Assembly: GCF_023023025.1 (NCBI RefSeq)
Contig: NZ_CP095481.1
Span: 9,127,001 to 9,191,000 of the forward strand
Direction: 5' to 3'
Source: Amycolatopsis sp. WQ 127309
GTDB lineage: Bacteria > Actinomycetota > Actinomycetes > Mycobacteriales > Pseudonocardiaceae
Length of the DNA: 64,000 nt
The notes below the pieces were generated by a model. It ran no database searches, was not told where the DNA came from, and saw only the letters and a program-made list of their open reading frames with translations. This document shows positions 52,428-64,000 of this stretch, piece by piece. The translations under genes and the position numbers were made by a program. Position 1 is the first letter of the stretch. The number at the start of each line of letters is the position of its first letter.

Positions 52428-55400
52428 ATGCAGGTTCCCGCCCCGCTGTCGTCCGCGCAGCAGCGGATCTGGACGTTGTCCCAGCTGGACGGCGCCGGCC
52501 CGGCCTACAACGAGGCCATGGCGTTCGCCCTGCGGGGACCGCTCGACCGCGACGTGCTGGCCCGGGCCCTCGCCGCGCTCGCCGCCCGGCACGAGTCGCT
52601 GCGGACCCGGATCGTCGTCGACGCGGGCCGCCCCGGACAGGTGATCGAGCCCGTCGAGGCCGGGCTGCCGCTCACCGTGACCGACGTCACCGGCCGGCCG
52701 GAGGACCTCGACGAGCTGCGGCGCACCGACCCGCTCACGCCGTTCGACCTGGGCCGCGCCCCGCTGGCCCGGGCCCGGCTGCTCGTCGCGGGACCCGAGC
52801 ACCACGTCCTGCTGATGACCGTCCACCACGTCGTCTTCGACGGCGCGTCGCGCACGATCCTGTTGCGGGAGCTGGGTGTGCTCTACACCGCGCTCCTGCG
52901 CGGCGAACCCGCCGAGCTGCCCGAGCCGCGCCAGTACCGCGACTACGCCCGCGAGCAGCAAGATTGGCTGGCCGGACCGGGACCGGCGCCGCACGAGACG
53001 TACTGGCGCGACCGGCTCGACGGTGTGCCGCCCCTGCTGGAGCTGCCCACCGACCGGCCGCGCCCGGCCGTGCAGGACCACCGCGGGGCACGGGTGCCGA
53101 TCAGCCTCGGCGAGGACCTGACGACGGCGTTGAAAGCGGTGGCCCGCGCCCACAGCACGACCCTCTTCTCGACCATCCTGACCGGCTGGTCGCTGCTGCT
53201 CTCGCGGCTTTCCGCCCAGGCTGACATCGTTGTCGGTGTGCCGGCACTGAACCGCGGCAAGGGCGGCGTCAACGCCGGTGTGCTCGGCTTCTTCGTCAAC
53301 ACCCTCCCGGTGCGGACCGGCTTCGCCGGCTCCCCCACCGGCGCCGGCCTGCTCACGCAGGTCCGCGCGACGCTGCGGGGCGCGCTCGACCACGCCGAGC
53401 TGCCGCTGGAGCGGGTGGTCGAGCTGGTGAACCCGCCGCGCAGCCCGGCGCACACGCCGTTGTTCCAGAACGGGTTCGCCTGGGTGCCGACGCAGCACGG
53501 CGTCCTGGCGCTGCCCGGCGTCGACGTCGACCCCATCGACGACCGGTACGCCCCGGCGAAGTTCGACCTGACCCTGGCCCTGGCCGACGAGGCCGGCGGC
53601 GTCGCCGGGCAGCTCGACTACGCCGTCGCCCTGTACGACCACGAGACGGCCGAGCGGTACGCCCGCTACCTCGTCCGGCTGCTGACGCAGCTGGCCGAGC
53701 GGCCCGGCGACGAGGTCGCGAGCTACGAACTGCTCGACGACGCCGAGCGCCACGAGATCCTGGCGAACTGGAGCACCGGCCCGGCCCCCGAACACCGGCC
53801 CGGCGGGCTCGTCGAGCGGTTCACGACCGAGGCCGACGCCCACCCGGACACGCCCGCCCTGGTCTGCGACGGGAAGACGGTCAGCTACGCCGAGCTGGAC
53901 CGGCGGGCCACCCGGCTGGCGAACGCGCTGCACGCCCGCGGCGTGCGGCCCGGCCAGGTGGTCGGCGTCCACAGTGGACGTTCGGCCGAGCTGGTGGTGG
54001 CCGTGCTGGGGATCCTCGAAGCCGGCGCGGCCTACCTGCCCCTCGACCCCGCCCAGCCGGCCGCGCGGCTGGCGGCGATGGTCGAGGACGCGCGCCCGGC
54101 GTTCGTGCTCAGTGACGCGCTCGACCGGCCCGACGGCTGGCTGTCCGTCACCGCCGTCGAGGCCGAAGGCCACGCCACCACCCGGCCCGTCGTCCGGACC
54201 GGGCGCGCGGACCTGGCCTACGTCATCTACACGTCCGGCTCGACCGGCCGGCCGAAGGGCGTCGCCGTCACCCACGGCAGCGTGCTGGCCCTGTTCGACC
54301 AGTGGCTCGGCCGGTTCGGCGCGACGCCGGGCGAGCCGACGTCGGCGTGGTCCAGCATCGGCTTCGACGCGTCCGTGCACGAGCTGCTGCTCCCGCTGAC
54401 CACCGGCGCCGTGCTGCACGTGGTGCCCGAAGAGGTCCGGCCCGACCCGGCGGCGTTGCTGGGGTGGTTGCGTGAACACCACGTCGTCCAGGCGTTCCTG
54501 CCGCCCGCCTACGTCCGCTGGATCGACGAGGACCTCTCACGGCTCGCCGGGCTCGCGCTGCGGCAGCTGCTGACCGGTGTCGAGTCGCTGTCGGAGGCGG
54601 CGCTGGCCCGCTTCGAGGAAACCCTGCCCGGCCTGCGGATCTGTTTCGGGTACGGGCCGACCGAAGCGACGCTGTACGCCACCGCCCACTTCGACCCGCG
54701 CCCCCTGGACCGGCCGGCCCCGATCGGCCGGCCGCTGCCCGGTTCGCGGCTGTACCTGCTGGACGAGCGGCTGCGGCCGGTCCCGCCGGGTGTCGCGGGC
54801 GAGGTCTTCCTCGCCGGCGACTGCCTCGCACGCGGCTACCTGAACCGGCCCGGCCTGACGGCGGCGCAGTTCGTGCCCGACCCGTTCGTGCCCGGCGAGC
54901 GGATGTACCGGACCGGCGACCTGGCCCGCTGGCTGCCCGGCGGCGAAGCCGAGTACGCGGGCCGCCGCGACGACCAGATCAAGCTGCGCGGGTTCCGCAT
55001 CGAACCGGGCGAGGTGACGGCCGCGCTGCTGGCCGTCCCCGGCGTCCGCGAAGCCGCGGTCCTGGTCGACCGCACCGGCGAACCCCGCCTGGTCGCGGGG
55101 ATCGCGGGCGGCGGCGGCCGGACCCCGCACGAGTGGCGGGCCGCGCTGGCCGACCGGCTGCCGGACTACATGATCCCGTCCGTCTTCGCCGAGTTCGACC
55201 GGCTTCCGCTGGGCCGCAGCGGAAAGCTGGACCGCGACGCCCTGCTCGCGCACGCCCGCTCGATGGCTCCCGCGGTCGTCAACACGGCCGCCCCACGCGA
55301 CCACGTCGAACTCGCGCTGCTCCGGATCTGGCGTTCGCTGCTGCTGCACCCGGCGATCGGGATCTCCGACGACTTCTTCGACGTCGGCGGCACATCGATC

Positions 55401-56240
55401 TCGGCCATCAAGCTGGCCCACGCGGTCGGCGAGGAGTTCGGCCGCGAGCTGCCGATCCGCGACGTCATCGTGCACCCGACCATCGAGGCCCAGGCCGCCC
55501 TGCTGCGGGCGGACAGCCCGCCCGGCGGCGGCAGCCTGATCGAGTTCCGCCGCGGCGCCGGGCGGCAACGCGTCGTCTGCGTGCACCCCGCCGGCGGGAC
55601 GGCGTTCTGCTACCTGCCGCTGAGCGCCTTGCTCCCGGACGACGCCGGCGTCCTCGGCATCCAGTCCCCCGGGCTCAACCCCGGTGAAGAGGCGCTGCCG
55701 AGCGTCGAGGCGATGGCCGCGGAGTACCTGCGGCTCGTCGATCCCCGGCCGGACGAGTCACTGGTCCTTTGTGGACTTTCCTACGGCGGCCTGATCGCGC
55801 ACGAGATGGGCCGGCAGCTGGCGGGCCACCCGCGGGTGAGCGTCGTGCTGCTCGACACCAACGCCACCGACGACGCGGCCGCGCGAGCCGCGATCGAGCC
55901 CGTGCCCGCGTCCGAGTTCCGGGAGAAACTGGTGCGCTTCAACGGGATGTACCCCGGCATCGACGACGCCCAGATCGACCGCTACCACCGCACGTACAAC
56001 CACAACCGGCTGACCGCGCGCGACCACGAGCCCGGCGAGTCGGGCGCGCGGCTGGTGTTCGTCCAGGCCGTGGGCGAGGACACGATCCCGGGTTCGGACG
56101 AGTTCTGGCGCCGCCGCGCGACCGGCGAGTACCGCATCGAGCCGGCCGACTGCGGGCACTGGAACATGCTGGAGAGCGATGCGCTCCCGCAGGTCGCCGA
56201 CGTGATCACGGCCGAACTGACCGAGCTGGCGGCCCGATGA
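52428..56240 (+). CDS. Nonribosomal peptide synthetase, termination module C-A-T-TE
   Basis: 1270 aa from the ATG at 52428 with GGAAAGG about 11 bp upstream. Condensation domain about 5-430 with active HHVVFDG (133-139). Adenylation about 460-940: VIYTSGSTGRPKG, YGPTEATLY, YRTGD, KLRGFRIEPGE, GRSGKL. By my alignment its ten-residue code reads DAHFLGGLYK; it fits no code I know, hydrophobic overall. Carrier domain about 960-1030, pantetheine Ser990 (GGTSIS). Type I thioesterase about 1045-1270 with Ser1118 (GLSYGG) and His1244. It accepts a peptide from another NRPS and releases the product. It overlaps the next gene by 4 bp, so both are co-translated although this module acts last. Confidence 0.95.
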   Translation: MQVPAPLSSAQQRIWTLSQLDGAGPAYNEAMAFALRGPLDRDVLARALAALAARHESLRTRIVVDAGRPGQVIEPVEAGLPLTVTDVTGRPEDLDELRRTDPLTPFDLGRAPLARARLLVAGPEHHVLLMTVHHVVFDGASRTILLRELGVLYTALLRGEPAELPEPRQYRDYAREQQDWLAGPGPAPHETYWRDRLDGVPPLLELPTDRPRPAVQDHRGARVPISLGEDLTTALKAVARAHSTTLFSTILTGWSLLLSRLSAQADIVVGVPALNRGKGGVNAGVLGFFVNTLPVRTGFAGSPTGAGLLTQVRATLRGALDHAELPLERVVELVNPPRSPAHTPLFQNGFAWVPTQHGVLALPGVDVDPIDDRYAPAKFDLTLALADEAGGVAGQLDYAVALYDHETAERYARYLVRLLTQLAERPGDEVASYELLDDAERHEILANWSTGPAPEHRPGGLVERFTTEADAHPDTPALVCDGKTVSYAELDRRATRLANALHARGVRPGQVVGVHSGRSAELVVAVLGILEAGAAYLPLDPAQPAARLAAMVEDARPAFVLSDALDRPDGWLSVTAVEAEGHATTRPVVRTGRADLAYVIYTSGSTGRPKGVAVTHGSVLALFDQWLGRFGATPGEPTSAWSSIGFDASVHELLLPLTTGAVLHVVPEEVRPDPAALLGWLREHHVVQAFLPPAYVRWIDEDLSRLAGLALRQLLTGVESLSEAALARFEETLPGLRICFGYGPTEATLYATAHFDPRPLDRPAPIGRPLPGSRLYLLDERLRPVPPGVAGEVFLAGDCLARGYLNRPGLTAAQFVPDPFVPGERMYRTGDLARWLPGGEAEYAGRRDDQIKLRGFRIEPGEVTAALLAVPGVREAAVLVDRTGEPRLVAGIAGGGGRTPHEWRAALADRLPDYMIPSVFAEFDRLPLGRSGKLDRDALLAHARSMAPAVVNTAAPRDHVELALLRIWRSLLLHPAIGISDDFFDVGGTSISAIKLAHAVGEEFGRELPIRDVIVHPTIEAQAALLRADSPPGGGSLIEFRRGAGRQRVVCVHPAGGTAFCYLPLSALLPDDAGVLGIQSPGLNPGEEALPSVEAMAAEYLRLVDPRPDESLVLCGLSYGGLIAHEMGRQLAGHPRVSVVLLDTNATDDAAARAAIEPVPASEFREKLVRFNGMYPGIDDAQIDRYHRTYNHNRLTARDHEPGESGARLVFVQAVGEDTIPGSDEFWRRRATGEYRIEPADCGHWNMLESDALPQVADVITAELTELAAR

Positions 56241-59200
56241 TCGCCCGGCGCGTCCACGACCAGGCCCTGCGCACGCCGGACGCCGTCGCGGTGTCCGACG
56301 GCGCCCGCGCGCTGACCTACGCCGAGCTGGACGCCGGCGCCGCGGCCGTCGCGGAGTCGTTGTCCCGCCGCGGTGTCCGCCCCGGCGACGCCGTCGCGGT
56401 GGGCCTGCCGCGCTCGGCGGACCTGATCCTCGTGATGCTCGGCGTGCTGCGCCTCGGCGGGCAGGTCGTGCCCCTCGACCGGCAGAGCCCGCCGGAGCGC
56501 CGGGACCACATGATCGCCGACTCGGGCGCGGTCGCCGTCATCCACGACGGCCTGCCCGGCCTGCCGCCGCTCACCCCGGCCGAGCTGCTGGCCGCTCCCG
56601 CCGTCGCGGGCGAACCGGCCGAGGCCGCCGCGACGTCGTTCCTCTTCTACACCTCCGGCACGACCGGGCGCCCCAAGGGCGTCGAGGTCCGCGACGCCGG
56701 GATCCTGCGGCTGGCCGACCCGGCCTGGCTCGAACCCGGTGCCCGGTACGCGAGCCTGGCCAACCCGGCCTTCGACGCGATCAGCTTCGAGGTCTGGCCG
56801 CCGCTGCTGACCGGCGGCACCTGCGTGGTGCTCGACGACGAGACCGTCCGCGACCCCCGCGCGTTCGCCGCCGCGCTGGTCCGCGAGCGCGTCGACACGA
56901 TGTTCGTCACGGCGTCGCTGTTCAACGCCGTCGCGGAGACGGTGCCGGCCTGCTTCGCCACCGTGGCCCGGGTGCTGATCGGCGGCGAGCAGCTCAACGC
57001 GCCGCTGATCCGCCGCTGGTACGCCGCCAACCCGGACTCGGCCACGCGGCTGCACAACGGCTACGGGCCGACCGAGACGACGACGTTCGCGCTGAGCCAC
57101 CCGATCCCGCGCGGCTTCGACGGCGACGTCGTGCCGATCGGCCGGCCGCTGCCGGACACCGGCGCGCTCGTGGTCGACGGCGAGCTGTACCTCTCGGGCG
57201 CCGGGGTCGCCGCGGGCTACCGCAACCTGCCGGACGAAACCGCGCAGCGGTTCGTCGAGCGCGACGGCGAGCGGTTCTACCGCACCGGTGACCTCGTCCG
57301 CGCACTGCCGGACGGCACCTTCGCCTACGTCGGACGCACGGACCGGCAGGTGAAGGTGCGCGGCTTCCGGATCGAGCCGGGCGAGCTGGAACGCCGGATC
57401 CTCGCCCACCCGGCGGTCCGGCAGGCTCACGTCGCCGCGCACCGCGGGGCCGGGCCGGTCGAGCTGTTCGCGTTCGTCGTGGCCGGGGACCTGGCGTACG
57501 CGGACTTCGACGCGCACCTGACCGCGTCGGTGCCGGCCTACATGCGCCCGCACCACGTCTTCCGCGTCGACGCCCTGCCCCGCACCGCGAACGACAAGGT
57601 CGACGAGACCGCGCTGCTGGCGCTCGGCCTCGCGCCGTGGCGGCGGCCGGGTACCGGCGAACCCGCGACGCCGTGGCAGCAAGAGGTCCTCGACGTCGTG
57701 GCGGACGTCCTCGGCACCCGCGACCCGCGGCCCGGCGACACGTGGCTCACCTCCGGCGGCGACTCGCTCAAGGCGTTGCGGCTGCGGTTCGCCGTCCAGG
57801 AGCGGTGGGGCACCGAACTCCCGCACTCCGCGGTGCGGCAAGGGACGTTCGCCGACCTCGCGGCGGCGATCGCCGGGGCCGGGACGGCGCAGTACCCGGT
57901 GCCCGCGCCGCCCGCGGGCTTGACGTCCGCCCCCGCGACGAGCGAGCAGCAACGGCTCTGGCTGCTGCAGCAGCGGAATCCGGCGTCCACGGCGTACCAC
58001 GTGCCGCTGGCGTTCCGGATCACCGGACCGGTCGACGTCGAGGCGCTTCGCCGGGGTTTGCGCGGCCTGGTCGAGCGGCACGTCGCGCTGCGGACGGCGT
58101 TCGAGGCGACGCCCGAGGGCCTGCGTCAGGTGGTCGGCCCGGCGTACGACCCGTGGACCGAAGCCGGGGACGGCTTCTTCACCGAGCCCTTCGACCTGGC
58201 CGTGCCCCGGCTGTTCCGGGCCGCCTGGGACGGTGAGCGGCTCCTGCTTTCCCTGCACCACATCGCGGTCGACGGCTGGTCGTTGAACGTCCTGTTCCGC
58301 GAGCTGTCCGGTGCGGTGCCGGTCGATTCCCGCACGACGTTGGATTTCGCGCTTTGGCAGACGGAGTGGTTCTCCTCCCCCGCCTACCTCGCCCAGCGCG
58401 ACGAGCTGCTGTCGCTCCACAGTGGACTCGACGACCAGCCGTCGCTGACCGCGTCGATGGCCGGCCGGCTGCGGCGGACGACCCTCGACACCGAGCGCGT
58501 CGACCGGTGGTGCGCCGAGCTGGGCCTGACGCGGTTCCAGCTGCTGCTCGGCGTCTTCGCCTGGAGCCTCTACGGCGTCACCGGGCAGACCGGCCCGCGG
58601 ATCGCCGCGCCGGTGGCGAACCGGCCGGTGCGGGAGTTCGAGGACAGCGTCGGGATGTTCGCCAACACCGTGCTGCTCCCGCTTTCCGTCGCCCCGGACG
58701 AGGACCTGCGCGCCCAGCTGCGGCGGCTCGGCACGGCGTCGGGCGCGGTGCTCGACCGGCAGGACGTCGCCTTCGCCGACGTCGCCACGGCGTTCGACTA
58801 CCTGTTCGTGCTGGAGAACACCGACTTCGGCGCGCTGAGCCTGCCGGGCTGCACGGTGAGTCCACAGTGGATCGAGGCGGCCGAGGCGAAGTGCGCGCTG
58901 ACGATGTCGGTCCTCGAGCGGCCGGACGGCTTCGACTGCCTCTGGGAGTACGCCGAAGGCCACTTCACCGAGGCGGAGGCCAAGGCGCTCGGCGAGCTGT
59001 TCTCGCGCGCGTTCGACCTGCTCGACGCGGGCCCGGCGACCCCGGCCGAGCTGGCCGAGCCGTACCGGCGGAGCCGGCCCGACCACGGCCGCGGCGAACC
59101 GGCGCAGCTGGACTGGGAAACGATGGCCGAGGGCTTCGCGCGGCAGGTCGCGCGGACCCCGGATGCCCCGGCGCTGGGCACGATGACCTACGCCGAGCTG

Positions 59201-62200
59201 GACGCGCACGCGGCCCGGCTCGCCGCCGTGCTGCCCGGGGACGCCACCGACGTCGCGCTGTACTTCGAGCCGTCCGCCGAGCACGTCGTGGCGCTGCTCG
59301 CGCTGGCCCGGCTCAACATCACCGCCGTGCCGCTGGACCCGGCCTACCCGCCGGCGTTGCTGCGCCAGGTCCTCGACCAGGTCCGGCCGCGTTGCGTGCT
59401 GCTCGCCCCGGGTACCGCGTTCGACGAGATCGACACCGGGATCGAACGGCAGTTCGTCACGCTCTCCGACGGCCCGGCGCCGGACGTCCCGCCCCGGCAC
59501 GCCGGCCGGCCGCTCTACACGCTGTTCACGTCCGGCTCGACCGGCGTGCCCAAGGGCGTGCGCGTCCCGGACCGCACCCTGGCGAACCTCGTGCAGTGGC
59601 AGGCGGCGCCGCCCGCGGTGACCCAGCAGTTCTCGATGCTGTCGTTCGACGTGTCGTTCCAGGAGATCTTCACGACCCTGTGCGGCGGCGGGTGCCTGCA
59701 CCTGGTCCGCCCGGGGTGGCGCCACGACGTCCCGGCGCTGCTGGCGCAGCTGGAGTCCGCGGGCATCGAGCGGATCTTCCTGCCGTACGTCGCGTTGCAG
59801 CTGCTGGCCGAGCACGGCGTGCGGCTCGGGAGCTACCCGTCACGGCTGCGGGACGTGATCACGGCGGGCGAGCAGCTCGTGTGCACCGGCGCGATCCGCC
59901 GCTGGTTCGCCGGCCTGCCCGGCGCGCGGCTGCACAACCACTACGGCCCGACCGAGACGCACGTGGTCAGCGCGCTGACGCTCGACGGCGACCCGACGAC
60001 CTGGCCCGAGCGGCCGGCGATCGGCCGGCCGGTGGCGGGCGCGGTGCTGCGGGTCGCCGGCACGGCGGGCGCGCCCGGCCGGATCGGCGAGCTGCTCATC
60101 GGCGGGCTGATGACGACCCGCTGCTACCTCGGGGACGTCCCCGGGAAGTTCGTCGAGACGCCGGAGCTGTTCTACCGCAGCGGCGACCTCGCGCACTTCG
60201 GCCGCGACGGGCTCCTGCACTTCGACGGCCGGGCCGACCACCAGCTCAAGGTCAGCGGGTACCGCCTCGAACTGGGGCAGGTCGAGGCCGCGCTGCTGCG
60301 CCACCCCGACGTCGTCAACGCGGTCGTGGCGCACGACGGCGAAAGCCTGCTGGCCTGCCTCGAATGCCACCGGACGCCGACGGCCGCGGAGCTGTCCGCG
60401 CACCTCGAGCCGTTGCTGCCGCCGCACGCGCGCGTCGACCGCTTCCTCGTCGTCCCGGCCCTGCCGCGGACACCGAGCGGGAAGCTCGACCGGGAAGCCG
60501 CGCTGCGGACGCCCGGCGAAGAGCTGCACCGCGGCCGCCGGTCCGGGCTGTCGGGCGTCTCGCGGCAGCTGGCCGAGCTGTTCGAGGAGGTGACGGGCGC
60601 GTCGATCGGCGCGGACGAGACGTTCTTCGCGGCGGGCGCGTCCAGCCTCGGGCTGATGCGGTTCCACCTGCGCTGCGCCGAGGAGGGGCTGCGGTTCACC
60701 GCGGCCGACCTGTTCGAGCACGTCACGGTCCGCGACCTGGCGCGGCTGCTGTCCGGTGCGGCCGATTCGGTTTCCGCGGCTTCCGGCGAGGTCGCCATCG
60801 ACGAGCCGATCGCGGTGATCGGCATGGCGCTCCGGGTGCCGGGCGCGCCGGATCTGGCCGCGTTCTGGGACCTGGTGCGGTCCGGCGGGCGCGGCATCGA
60901 GCACTTCACCGCCGGCGACGGCCTGGTCGGCGCGCGCAGCATCCTCGACAGGCCCTTGGCGTTCGACCCGGAGCACTTCGGGATCAGCCGCCGCGACGCC
61001 GCGCTGATGGACCCGCAGCAGCGGCACCTGCTGATGAGCTGCGTCGAGGCGCTGGCCCACGCGGGGATCACGTCCGGCGAGGGCGTCGGGCTGGTCGCCG
61101 GGTGCGGCGAGGACACGTACTTCCAGTCGCTGCTGCGCGAGGGCGACCCGGCCGCGCTGCCGGACGGCTTCCAGCTGGCGCTGCACCACGAGAAGGACTT
61201 CCTCGCGACGAAGGCCGCGTACCACCTGAACCTGACCGGGCCGGCGCTGACCACGCAGACGGCGTGTTCGAGTTCGCTGGTCGCGGTCCACCAGGCGGCC
61301 GGGCTGCTGCGCACCGGCGAGGCGGACGTCATGCTGGCGGGCGGCGTCCTGGTCGACGTCACCCTTTCCGAGGGCTACCGGTACCGCCCGCAGCACATCT
61401 TCTCGGCGGACGGCCACTGCCGCCCGTTCAGCGACGACGCGGGCGGCACGGTCGGCGCGAGCGGCGTCGGCGTCGTGGTGCTGAAGCCGCTGAGCCACGC
61501 GCGTCGCGACGGCGACGCGGTGTACGCGGTGATCACGGGCTCGGCGATCAACAACGACGGCGCGGTGAAGCAGGGTTACACCGCCCCGTCGCCGGCCGGG
61601 CAGCGCGAGGTGATCCGCGCGGCCCTGCGCCGCGCCGGGCGGACGTCGCTCGGCTACGTCGAAACCCACGGGACGGGCACCCGGCTGGGCGACCCGATCG
61701 AGGTCGCGGCGCTGCGGCAGGCGCTGGATCCGTCGGCGGAGTGCGCGTTGTCGTCGGTGAAGAGCCAGATCGGCCACCTGGGCGCGGCGGCGGGGGTCGT
61801 CGGCCTGATCCGGGCGGCGCTGTCCGTCCACCACGGACTGATCCCGCCGACGGCGGACTTCCACGCGCCGAACCCGGCGCTGGAGCTGGGCCCGTTCCGG
61901 GTGCCGACGGCCGCGGAGCCGTGGCCGTCCGGTCCGCGGGTGGCGGGGGTGAGCAGCTTCGGCATCGGCGGCACGAACGCCCACGTGGTCCTGGAGGCGG
62001 ACCCGGCCGTCGTGTCGCGTCCGGCTCCCGCGCCGGTGGTCGTGCTGTCGGCGAGCAGCGCGTCGGCTCTGCGCGAAGACGCCCTGCGGGTGGCCGAGTA
62101 CCTGGAGGCGCACCCGGAGTCCTTTGTGGACGTGGTGCGCCACCTGCAGACGGGCCGCAAGGAGTACCGCTGGCGCTTGGCCGCGGCATGCAACGACGCG

Positions 62201-64000
62201 TCGGCGGCGGTGAAGTGGCTGCGCACGGCCGAGCCACGCGAAGCAGAGCCCACGGGCACGAGCACACCGCGCGATGATCCGGCGGAACTCGCGGCGGCCT
62301 GGCTGCGCGGCGAGCCCGTCGACTGGGGCGTCCCCGCTTCCCCGGCTCCGTGGGACTTCCCGCCGCCCTCCTTCGCCCGCGAGGACTTCGACTTCCCGCG
62401 CAAGCCCGCCGTCCAGCGGCGGCCCGAAGCCGAGTGGCTCCACCAGCCCACCTGGGTGCGGCTCCGGCGGGCCACCCCTGCCCAGGCCCCCGTCGACCGC
62501 GTGCTCGTCATCTCCAGCAACGGCCCCCTGCCGGCCCCGGCCCTCGACACCGCCTACACCCGGGTCGTTCGCGTGCACGCCGCCACGTCGTTCGCCCACC
62601 CGGGGCCGGACCTCTTCGAAGCCGATCCGGCCGACGCGGACCAGCTCGGCCAGGTGCTCGCCGCCCTCGACGGGGACGTCGACTGGCTGCACACCCTCCC
62701 CCTCGGCATCAGCGGCCCGGTCGGCGAAACCGCCCTCGCCCACGCGCGCTGGGCCTGCGTCGACGCCCCCGCCGCCCTCCTGCGCGCCGCCGGGACCCGC
62801 AAGCTGCGCACCTGGTGGCTCTCCGCCGGCGCCGCCCCGGCGAACACCGACGTCACCCGCCCCGAAGCCGGGCTGCTCGCCGGGGTCACCGCCGTCGGGC
62901 CGCAGGAAACCGGCGTGCCCGGGCACTGGATCGACGTCGCGGGCCAGTGGGACGCCGCGGTCGCGGGTCTCCTCACCGGCCCCACCCCGCCCGCGCGGGT
63001 CGCCCTCCGGCACGGCTTCTGGTGGGAACAAGGCACCTCCCCGGTCACGCCCGGCGGCGGCCGGACCGCGGACGGCACGTATCTCGTCCTCGGCGGCACC
63101 GGCGGCATCGGCACCGCCGTCGCCGAGGTCCTGCTGACCAGGACCACCGGCCGGGTCGTGCTGGCCGCCCGCAACCCGCGGCTGCCCGCACCGCTCGAGC
63201 CGTGGGCCGATCGCGTCGACCTCCTCGAAGCCGACCTCACCACCGACGACATCCGGATCGACACGCCGCTGGCCGGGATCGTCCACGCCGCCGGGGTCGC
63301 GGCGGGCGGCCTCATCGCGACCCGGGGGGACACGACCGGCCAAGACGCCAAGCTCGCCGGCGCGCTGCTGGTGGAGCGGCTCATCGAACGCCACCGGCCC
63401 GCCCTCGTCGTCTACTGCTCGTCGCTCTCCGCGCAGTTCGGCGGCACCGGCCAGCTCGACTACGCCGCCGCCAACGGCTTCCTCGACGCCCTCGCCCACC
63501 ACGCCCCGGACGCGGCGACCGTCCGGCTGAGCCTCGGCTGGGACGTCTGGCGCGACACCGGCATGGCCGTCACCGCCCTGCGGACCGACGCCCGCCACCA
63601 GGCCCACCTCGCCGTCGGCCTGACCGCCGAAGAGGGCAAACGCGTCTTCGCCAGTGCCCTCGACGCCGGGCTCCCGCAGCTCCTGGTGTCGACGACCGAC
63701 CTCGCCGACGCCCGCGGCTTCCACGAGCGCGAACCGGTCGCCGTCACCGCGCCGCAGGAAGACCCCGCCGCGGAACTGGCCGAGGAGGTGCGCGTGCTGC
63801 TCGGCGTCGACGCGCTGGACCCGAACGTCCCGCTCTACGACCTCGGCGCCGATTCGCTGATGCTGCTGGACGTCGTCGACTCGGTGAAACGGCTCTTCGG
63901 CGTCGACCTCGAGCTGGCCTGGCTCGGCCCGGAAGTGACGCTCACCGGCCTGCTGGCCCGGCTGGCGGAGGCCGCCGGCCCCGAGGACGTCGCCGTCCAG
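56237..64000 (+). CDS. Hybrid NRPS-PKS, A-T-C-A-T-KS-KR-ACP without AT in cis (3' end cut by window)
   Basis: The frame is open from the ATG at 56237 to the last base (2588 codons seen). Loading A1 about 1-455 (code read as DAFFLGGTFK, aliphatic-like); T1 Ser510; C about 565-940 with HHIAVDG at 674; A2 about 960-1420 (code DVQFIAHVVK, close to the proline code); T2 Ser1470. KS about 1522-1930 with Cys1677, His1811 and His1847 all present. About 1930-2045 is a linker typical after KS domains, too short for an acyltransferase. KR about 2045-2480 with GGTGGIG (2286) and Tyr2409. ACP Ser2540. So an AT must act in trans, or lie beyond the edge. It starts an assembly line whose TE module is in the previous gene. 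Confidence 0.95.
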   Translation, partial: MIARRVHDQALRTPDAVAVSDGARALTYAELDAGAAAVAESLSRRGVRPGDAVAVGLPRSADLILVMLGVLRLGGQVVPLDRQSPPERRDHMIADSGAVAVIHDGLPGLPPLTPAELLAAPAVAGEPAEAAATSFLFYTSGTTGRPKGVEVRDAGILRLADPAWLEPGARYASLANPAFDAISFEVWPPLLTGGTCVVLDDETVRDPRAFAAALVRERVDTMFVTASLFNAVAETVPACFATVARVLIGGEQLNAPLIRRWYAANPDSATRLHNGYGPTETTTFALSHPIPRGFDGDVVPIGRPLPDTGALVVDGELYLSGAGVAAGYRNLPDETAQRFVERDGERFYRTGDLVRALPDGTFAYVGRTDRQVKVRGFRIEPGELERRILAHPAVRQAHVAAHRGAGPVELFAFVVAGDLAYADFDAHLTASVPAYMRPHHVFRVDALPRTANDKVDETALLALGLAPWRRPGTGEPATPWQQEVLDVVADVLGTRDPRPGDTWLTSGGDSLKALRLRFAVQERWGTELPHSAVRQGTFADLAAAIAGAGTAQYPVPAPPAGLTSAPATSEQQRLWLLQQRNPASTAYHVPLAFRITGPVDVEALRRGLRGLVERHVALRTAFEATPEGLRQVVGPAYDPWTEAGDGFFTEPFDLAVPRLFRAAWDGERLLLSLHHIAVDGWSLNVLFRELSGAVPVDSRTTLDFALWQTEWFSSPAYLAQRDELLSLHSGLDDQPSLTASMAGRLRRTTLDTERVDRWCAELGLTRFQLLLGVFAWSLYGVTGQTGPRIAAPVANRPVREFEDSVGMFANTVLLPLSVAPDEDLRAQLRRLGTASGAVLDRQDVAFADVATAFDYLFVLENTDFGALSLPGCTVSPQWIEAAEAKCALTMSVLERPDGFDCLWEYAEGHFTEAEAKALGELFSRAFDLLDAGPATPAELAEPYRRSRPDHGRGEPAQLDWETMAEGFARQVARTPDAPALGTMTYAELDAHAARLAAVLPGDATDVALYFEPSAEHVVALLALARLNITAVPLDPAYPPALLRQVLDQVRPRCVLLAPGTAFDEIDTGIERQFVTLSDGPAPDVPPRHAGRPLYTLFTSGSTGVPKGVRVPDRTLANLVQWQAAPPAVTQQFSMLSFDVSFQEIFTTLCGGGCLHLVRPGWRHDVPALLAQLESAGIERIFLPYVALQLLAEHGVRLGSYPSRLRDVITAGEQLVCTGAIRRWFAGLPGARLHNHYGPTETHVVSALTLDGDPTTWPERPAIGRPVAGAVLRVAGTAGAPGRIGELLIGGLMTTRCYLGDVPGKFVETPELFYRSGDLAHFGRDGLLHFDGRADHQLKVSGYRLELGQVEAALLRHPDVVNAVVAHDGESLLACLECHRTPTAAELSAHLEPLLPPHARVDRFLVVPALPRTPSGKLDREAALRTPGEELHRGRRSGLSGVSRQLAELFEEVTGASIGADETFFAAGASSLGLMRFHLRCAEEGLRFTAADLFEHVTVRDLARLLSGAADSVSAASGEVAIDEPIAVIGMALRVPGAPDLAAFWDLVRSGGRGIEHFTAGDGLVGARSILDRPLAFDPEHFGISRRDAALMDPQQRHLLMSCVEALAHAGITSGEGVGLVAGCGEDTYFQSLLREGDPAALPDGFQLALHHEKDFLATKAAYHLNLTGPALTTQTACSSSLVAVHQAAGLLRTGEADVMLAGGVLVDVTLSEGYRYRPQHIFSADGHCRPFSDDAGGTVGASGVGVVVLKPLSHARRDGDAVYAVITGSAINNDGAVKQGYTAPSPAGQREVIRAALRRAGRTSLGYVETHGTGTRLGDPIEVAALRQALDPSAECALSSVKSQIGHLGAAAGVVGLIRAALSVHHGLIPPTADFHAPNPALELGPFRVPTAAEPWPSGPRVAGVSSFGIGGTNAHVVLEADPAVVSRPAPAPVVVLSASSASALREDALRVAEYLEAHPESFVDVVRHLQTGRKEYRWRLAAACNDASAAVKWLRTAEPREAEPTGTSTPRDDPAELAAAWLRGEPVDWGVPASPAPWDFPPPSFAREDFDFPRKPAVQRRPEAEWLHQPTWVRLRRATPAQAPVDRVLVISSNGPLPAPALDTAYTRVVRVHAATSFAHPGPDLFEADPADADQLGQVLAALDGDVDWLHTLPLGISGPVGETALAHARWACVDAPAALLRAAGTRKLRTWWLSAGAAPANTDVTRPEAGLLAGVTAVGPQETGVPGHWIDVAGQWDAAVAGLLTGPTPPARVALRHGFWWEQGTSPVTPGGGRTADGTYLVLGGTGGIGTAVAEVLLTRTTGRVVLAARNPRLPAPLEPWADRVDLLEADLTTDDIRIDTPLAGIVHAAGVAAGGLIATRGDTTGQDAKLAGALLVERLIERHRPALVVYCSSLSAQFGGTGQLDYAAANGFLDALAHHAPDAATVRLSLGWDVWRDTGMAVTALRTDARHQAHLAVGLTAEEGKRVFASALDAGLPQLLVSTTDLADARGFHEREPVAVTAPQEDPAAELAEEVRVLLGVDALDPNVPLYDLGADSLMLLDVVDSVKRLFGVDLELAWLGPEVTLTGLLARLAEAAGPEDVAVQ

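Follow-up and report, generated by a model that had tools for sequence, protein, structure and literature searches.

At the right-hand end of a 64,000-nucleotide stretch of DNA (the window; G000:C1:9127001-9191000 in the single-contig, 11.13 Mb genome of Amycolatopsis sp. WQ 127309), two genes encode an NRPS-PKS hybrid whose ketosynthase (KS) module carries no acyltransferase (AT), and we asked which pathway such an assembly line belongs to and how its extender unit would be supplied. A preliminary description had read the genes as overlapping, with the domain orders C-A-T-TE and then A-T-C-A-T-KS-KR-ACP; Pfam domains and an ATGA overlap, in which the start codon of gene 2 lies inside the end of gene 1, bear this out (Table 1). 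It had not recognised the combination as a known pathway. However, the architecture is that of detoxin and rimosamide clusters (PMC9503745, PMC12828459), with TauD, GSCFA and SGNH-like genes adjoining. It is very probable that the locus is a detoxin/rimosamide-like (DRL) depsipeptide cluster, this being the best full explanation, with FabD loading, ester formation and acetylation included. The family is already known, and the cluster is a further member of it; in DRL clusters an AT-less module and a C-A-T-TE protein are the rule, which places the apparent oddity within a known, experimentally studied family. Detoxin/rimosamide-like compounds protect some bacteria against an antibiotic, and anti-blasticidin S activity of the product counts among the features of the family.

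Table 1. Features of the cluster. Plain positions count from the first letter of the window; those prefixed L006 are coordinates of that locus.
Feature	Position	Strand	Description
Gene 1	52428 (or 52368)..56240	+	NRPS with Condensation, AMP-binding, PP-binding and Thioesterase domains by Pfam (C-A-T-TE); RmoH/MirG-like
Gene 2	56237..64696 (window-equivalent)	+	A-T-C-A-T-KS-KR-ACP-TE; 2819 aa; no AT
KS core	60803..61861	+	Gene 2 residues 1523-1875; Cys1677/His1811/His1847
Post-KS linker	61874..62224	+	Gene 2 residues 1880-1996; KAsynt_C_assoc, RhiE-like and CurL-like linker families; no AT after it
KR catalytic part	63074..63556	+	Gene 2 residues 2280-2440
ACP phosphopantetheine serine codon	63854..63856	+	Ser2540
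GSCFA protein	L006:14693-15730		Right of gene 2
232-aa protein with SGNH-type motifs	L006:15687-16385		Right of the GSCFA gene
TauD	L006:16407-17279		PF02668, E 4.6e-59; 64-70% identity to TauD of L021/L022
178-aa protein	L006:17269-17805	minus	Has relatives next to TauD in Streptomyces

The whole protein encoded by gene 2 gave no match to PF00698 at E 0.001, nor any to an AT profile grown from FabD of the same genome, and no AT was shown among the 120 homologues listed (several of them partial), so its absence is not due to chance. The claim that no AT would fit between KS and KR, where about 115 residues had been counted, was likewise upheld: 360 residues separate the C-terminal motif of the KS (residues 1522-1924 by its own profile, slightly beyond the Pfam core) from the glycine-rich loop of the KR, whose Rossmann part begins at residue 2280, and, as the structural half of a KR takes up about 200 residues, some 120-160 are left. 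By eye, this region keeps a part resembling a KS-AT linker and another that we take to be like a post-AT linker. A structure prediction of KS, linker and KR built from 12 close relatives was unusable (mean pLDDT 39). Extension of the sequence to the right, which the preliminary description had called for, ruled out a cis-AT of the same module just past the window edge, since gene 2 closes 696 bases on with the ACP and a second thioesterase, outside the window; the search on that side recovered tailoring genes (GSCFA, SGNH-like and TauD) and no free-standing AT near the cluster. The KS catalytic residues are all present, as first described, and are kept in 128/128 DRL rows; the KR Ser/Tyr/Lys, ACP Ser and TE Ser/His are also in place. 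Among the homologues, five (P0005, P0050, P0079, P0107 and P0087) carry, as judged by eye, extended low-complexity inserts that are repeated in part and lie between the KS and the KR, some of them at the expected place of an AT. In Streptomyces dangxiongensis (P0070) a single protein of 3434 aa combines the DRL PKS with a fused GSCFA domain, according to a precomputed Pfam list.

Gene content and order also connect the cluster to named relatives. The core of the DRL family is a hybrid NRPS/PKS gene and a tauD-like gene (PMC8302735), and both the signature hybrid without an AT and a TauD-like dioxygenase are present here. PipC homologues in known DRL clusters are without an AT domain (PMC12828459); in the miramide pathway MirG is C-A-T-TE, and MirF and MirE are A-T-C-A-T-KS and KR-T-TE, again with the AT absent (PMC9503745, section 3.3). 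The rimosamide/detoxin (rmo, det) and miramide (mir) clusters of Streptomyces share with our locus the C-A-T-TE protein, the AT-less A-T-C-A-T-KS-KR-ACP line, TauD and an Ile/Val-Pro core, predicted in our case (PMC9503745, section 3.3), whereas rimosamide adds a glycine module, RmoG (PMC9205934), and the miramide PKS is split in two (PMC9503745). The pseudotetraivprolide (pip) cluster of Pseudomonas entomophila resembles it in the AT-less PipC-like protein with a TE, the TE on the partner NRPS, which forms the ester in pip and is predicted to do so here, and PipE (TauD), PipF, PipG and probably PipD (PMC12828459), but uses two NRPSs to build a tetrapeptide and encodes the N-acetyltransferase PipH; the neighbours examined here include neither. 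Beyond gene 2 lie GSCFA, SGNH-like, TauD and SpcZ-like genes, followed by genes for TetR and an alcohol dehydrogenase; to the left of gene 1, two genes, one trypsin-like and one for a BTAD-type regulator, were not counted as cluster parts. The order from C-A-T-TE to TauD is the same in two Streptomyces plasmid clusters (L021 and L022), to which gene 1 shows 58-60% identity, and gene 1 and the PKS together 53-60%. Among the matches listed, Amycolatopsis sp. NBC_01286 has the best PKS homologue (97%), and Amycolatopsis also accounts for many of those that follow. The module had been thought unusual in Pseudonocardiaceae; it is carried by 23 of 80 genomes of the same genus, its own genome counted. 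A distant DRL-like NRPS/PKS pair (L023, 36% to gene 2) was seen on a Serratia proteamaculans plasmid typed as conjugative, with a transposase close by; the stretch retrieved has neither TauD nor GSCFA among its annotations.

We infer every catalytic step below, as well as FabD as the loader and the amino acids, from studied relatives. Gene 1 would presumably make an N-acyl-aminoacyl unit. Gene 2 would couple a Val/Ile-like residue to proline; its KS would add one malonyl unit and its KR would make a beta-hydroxyl, to which the TE of gene 1 (Ser1118 and His1244 present) is predicted to esterify the gene 1 unit; the TE of gene 2 would release the product. At what we take to be the positions of the adenylation code, nine of ten were read by motif as DAF?LGGTFK (A1) and DVQ?IAHVVK (A2) in gene 2, presumably Val/Ile-like followed by Pro-like, which agrees with the family. 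The pattern DVQ[IVL]AHVVK occurs in 118/128 rows. The gene 1 code (DAH?LGGLYK, 9/10 positions read) recurs in 11 of the 13 other loci in which the code was readable; it differs in L043 and L023, and L041 was dropped because it was read in the wrong frame. Gene 1 of L041 (genome G055) matched in two different frames, pointing to a frame-disrupted or mis-assembled gene. Matches of the A domains in the PDB yielded no specificity. Tailoring would follow, with TauD hydroxylating the proline ring and PipF and PipG, together with a candidate PipD, O-acetylating the hydroxylated ring. O-acetylation is lost on deletion of pipD, pipF or pipG (PMC12828459); counting against this step here, position 51 of PipG is Arg51, versus His51 in the triad proposed in that paper. 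The preliminary description also saw an inverted gene order, the module with the thioesterase being encoded first although acting last. That view is not supported, as both genes carry a TE, and in the Pseudomonas relative that has been studied the TE of the partner NRPS (PipB) forms the ester and the product is released by the TE of the PKS (PMC12828459). The supposedly inverted order is that of the compared Streptomyces clusters, two assembly lines meeting in an ester.

Loading of the extender in trans, as originally proposed, is supported as the most likely route, and housekeeping FabD would most likely load malonyl onto the ACP of the gene 2 module. The FabD gene sits in a fabD-fabH-acpP-fabF operon and was matched at E 1e-80 in 80/80 genomes of the genus; FabD loads the PipC ACP of Pseudomonas in vitro (PMC12828459) and is described as the trans-AT for another NRPS-PKS, that of barnesin (PMC13096860). 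FabD appears to be the best candidate for loading and is the only one seen in every genome, but it is not the sole candidate, because two other discrete ATs are encoded in the genome. PF00698 matched 108 times genome-wide, 104 times in open frames of over 1000 aa, and the matches nearest to the cluster lie about 96 kb to the left and 305 kb to the right. A separate PKS cluster of trans-AT type is located about 1.8 Mb away (G000:C1 about 7311000-7351300; L028, L029), with ten KS matches at 7.315-7.351 Mb and ATs only in two smaller ORFs, namely a 737-aa protein with an AT and a nitronate-monooxygenase-like part, presumably of the type called AT-ER, and an AT-TE protein. A DRL cluster whose module is loaded by one of these dedicated trans-ATs is rather unlikely, albeit the best placed of the alternatives. 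Both proteins are present in this genome, and G066 has an AT-ER protein at 96% together with a second AT matching AT-ER at 48% (the AT-TE protein of our strain matches AT-ER at 47%). However, the AT part of AT-ER was matched at E 1e-60 in only 6 of the 23 DRL-positive genomes (G000, G044, G052, G055, G059 and G066); among the other 17, 14 gave no match and three matched the ER part only, in a search that scored 13 candidates per genome and could miss diverged discrete ATs. FabD, by comparison, has both the distribution and the in vitro loading of the Pseudomonas ACP in its favour.

The phylogeny of the KS bears on how the AT came to be missing. A homologue search with the Serratia protein yielded other PKSs for the most part, and these served as KS references. 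In a quick tree of 110 rows, 13/13 DRL KSs formed one clade (SH-aLRT 100), nested in a larger clade of 52 rows; this also takes in 29 cis-AT rows and another 10 in which no AT was detected, so that some other AT-less KSs sit there too. A more careful tree of 56 rows (9 DRL, 24 cis, 23 trans) set the 9 DRL and 16 cis KSs, NRPS-PKS hybrids among the latter, against the 23 trans and 8 modular cis KSs with 100/100 support, although its rows were hand-picked after the first tree (23 of 48 no-AT rows kept, none from the 10 beside DRL), which favours that split. Forcing DRL and trans KSs together cost 63 log-likelihood units (p-AU 0.0226), a moderate rejection that the same hand-picking weakens. Loss of the AT in DRL thus looks separate from that in canonical trans-AT systems, and the tree suggests that AT-less modules supplied from primary metabolism arose separately.

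An independent, canonical trans-AT PKS-NRPS system unrelated to detoxins would account for the AT-less KS-KR-ACP, the RhiE-like linker match in Pfam and the company of a trans-AT cluster in the genome, but it is highly improbable: the trees, with the hand-picking noted, disfavour such an origin by placing the KS outside the sampled trans-AT clades, the neighbours are the DRL set, and the cluster contains no discrete AT gene. A decaying cis-AT module that has lost elongation, which would suit the grouping with cis-AT KSs and the linker-like parts seen by eye to flank the missing AT, is just as improbable, given that our protein has the KS, KR, ACP and TE residues, as do 126 to 128 of the 128 rows, and that AT-less relatives that have been studied do yield product (PMC12828459, PMC9503745). 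The preliminary description had set a KS in a cis-AT clade with a decayed AT against its own reading; the KS does group with cis-AT rather than canonical trans-AT KSs, but no AT remnant was detected between KS and KR. Within the DRL reading, we lean slightly towards a history in which DRL KSs arose from cis-AT modules with a separate loss of the AT and now rely on FabD, and in which pipD, pipF and pipG disappeared together on three or more occasions, with one visible relic and a P450 in their place in one Amycolatopsis clade.

These three finishing genes are kept here and lacking in most of the related module-bearing genomes compared. PipF, PipG and PipD were each matched in 4/80 genomes of the genus, and in the same four (G000, G059, G070 and G079), which are 4 of the 23 that carry the module. 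Co-occurrence of the three genes and Pseudomonas strains without them have been described (PMC12828459). The candidate PipD matched no Pfam family at E values up to 0.1; its identity is suggested by its place, its co-occurrence with the other two, and the 43-54% identity that it shows to genes lying next to TauD in L021, L022, L042 and L047. A family-wide PipF search, scoring nine candidates per genome, returned only our strain among 297 genomes; inclusion of G059, G070 and G079 in it is uncertain, and it was not used for counts. In the nearest relative with a locus compared (G066; gene 1 95%, PKS pieces 86% and 92%, TauD 94%, ADH 96%, TetR 85%), TauD directly follows the PKS, and 49 nt after the TauD stop (L039) align with the 3' terminus of pipD, whose stop codon is kept in frame; the alignment scores 59 against 40 for the best of 200 letter shuffles. 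Across nine other loci, the pipD-bearing L042 aligned throughout, and the eight without pipD showed nothing above shuffles. The relic implies that G066 lost pipD. Acquisition of pipGF by our strain is less likely than this loss, considering the relic and the agreement of PipF and PKS distances (19 rows, Mantel r 0.738, 0/2000 permutations as high). Most cluster genes share 85-96% identity between our strain and G066, which make a natural with/without pair for PipDFG function in actinobacteria.

On a PKS tree of 36 rows (19 with the genes, 17 without), the trait needs three changes, which we read as losses because the outer rows carry the genes. In that tree 13 of the rows with the genes were chosen for having a contig of the same length as one with a PipF match, with no equivalent draw for those without; three of the 23 module genomes (G029, G044 and G023) are left out, and the minus state of Streptomyces mirabilis is based on one 32-kb locus. 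In 7/7 examined loci of a 15-member minus clade a P450 gene directly follows TauD (L040, L041, L044, L045, L046, L048 and L049) and PipF, PipG and PipD have no match, the reverse of our cluster; gene 1, PKS and TauD are otherwise 73-87% identical to ours in these loci, save for a 69% gene 1 piece in L041. A P450 was not found in the window or in L039, L042, L043, L047, L021, L022, L038, L006 and L007. An Amycolatopsis detoxin clade with a P450 has been described (detoxins P1-P3; PMC9231227), and both this clade and the absence of pipDFG as such are already known (PMC9231227, PMC12828459); within the parts of the family literature covered, no report of pipDFG losses in Amycolatopsis or of a pipD relic was found. 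In four of the P450 loci (L041, L044, L045 and L048) a further protein follows at once after the P450, without a Pfam match in the two tested. In G059, the PipD match (G059:C1:9330358-9330888) lies about 62 kb from PipF and the rest of the DRL cluster.
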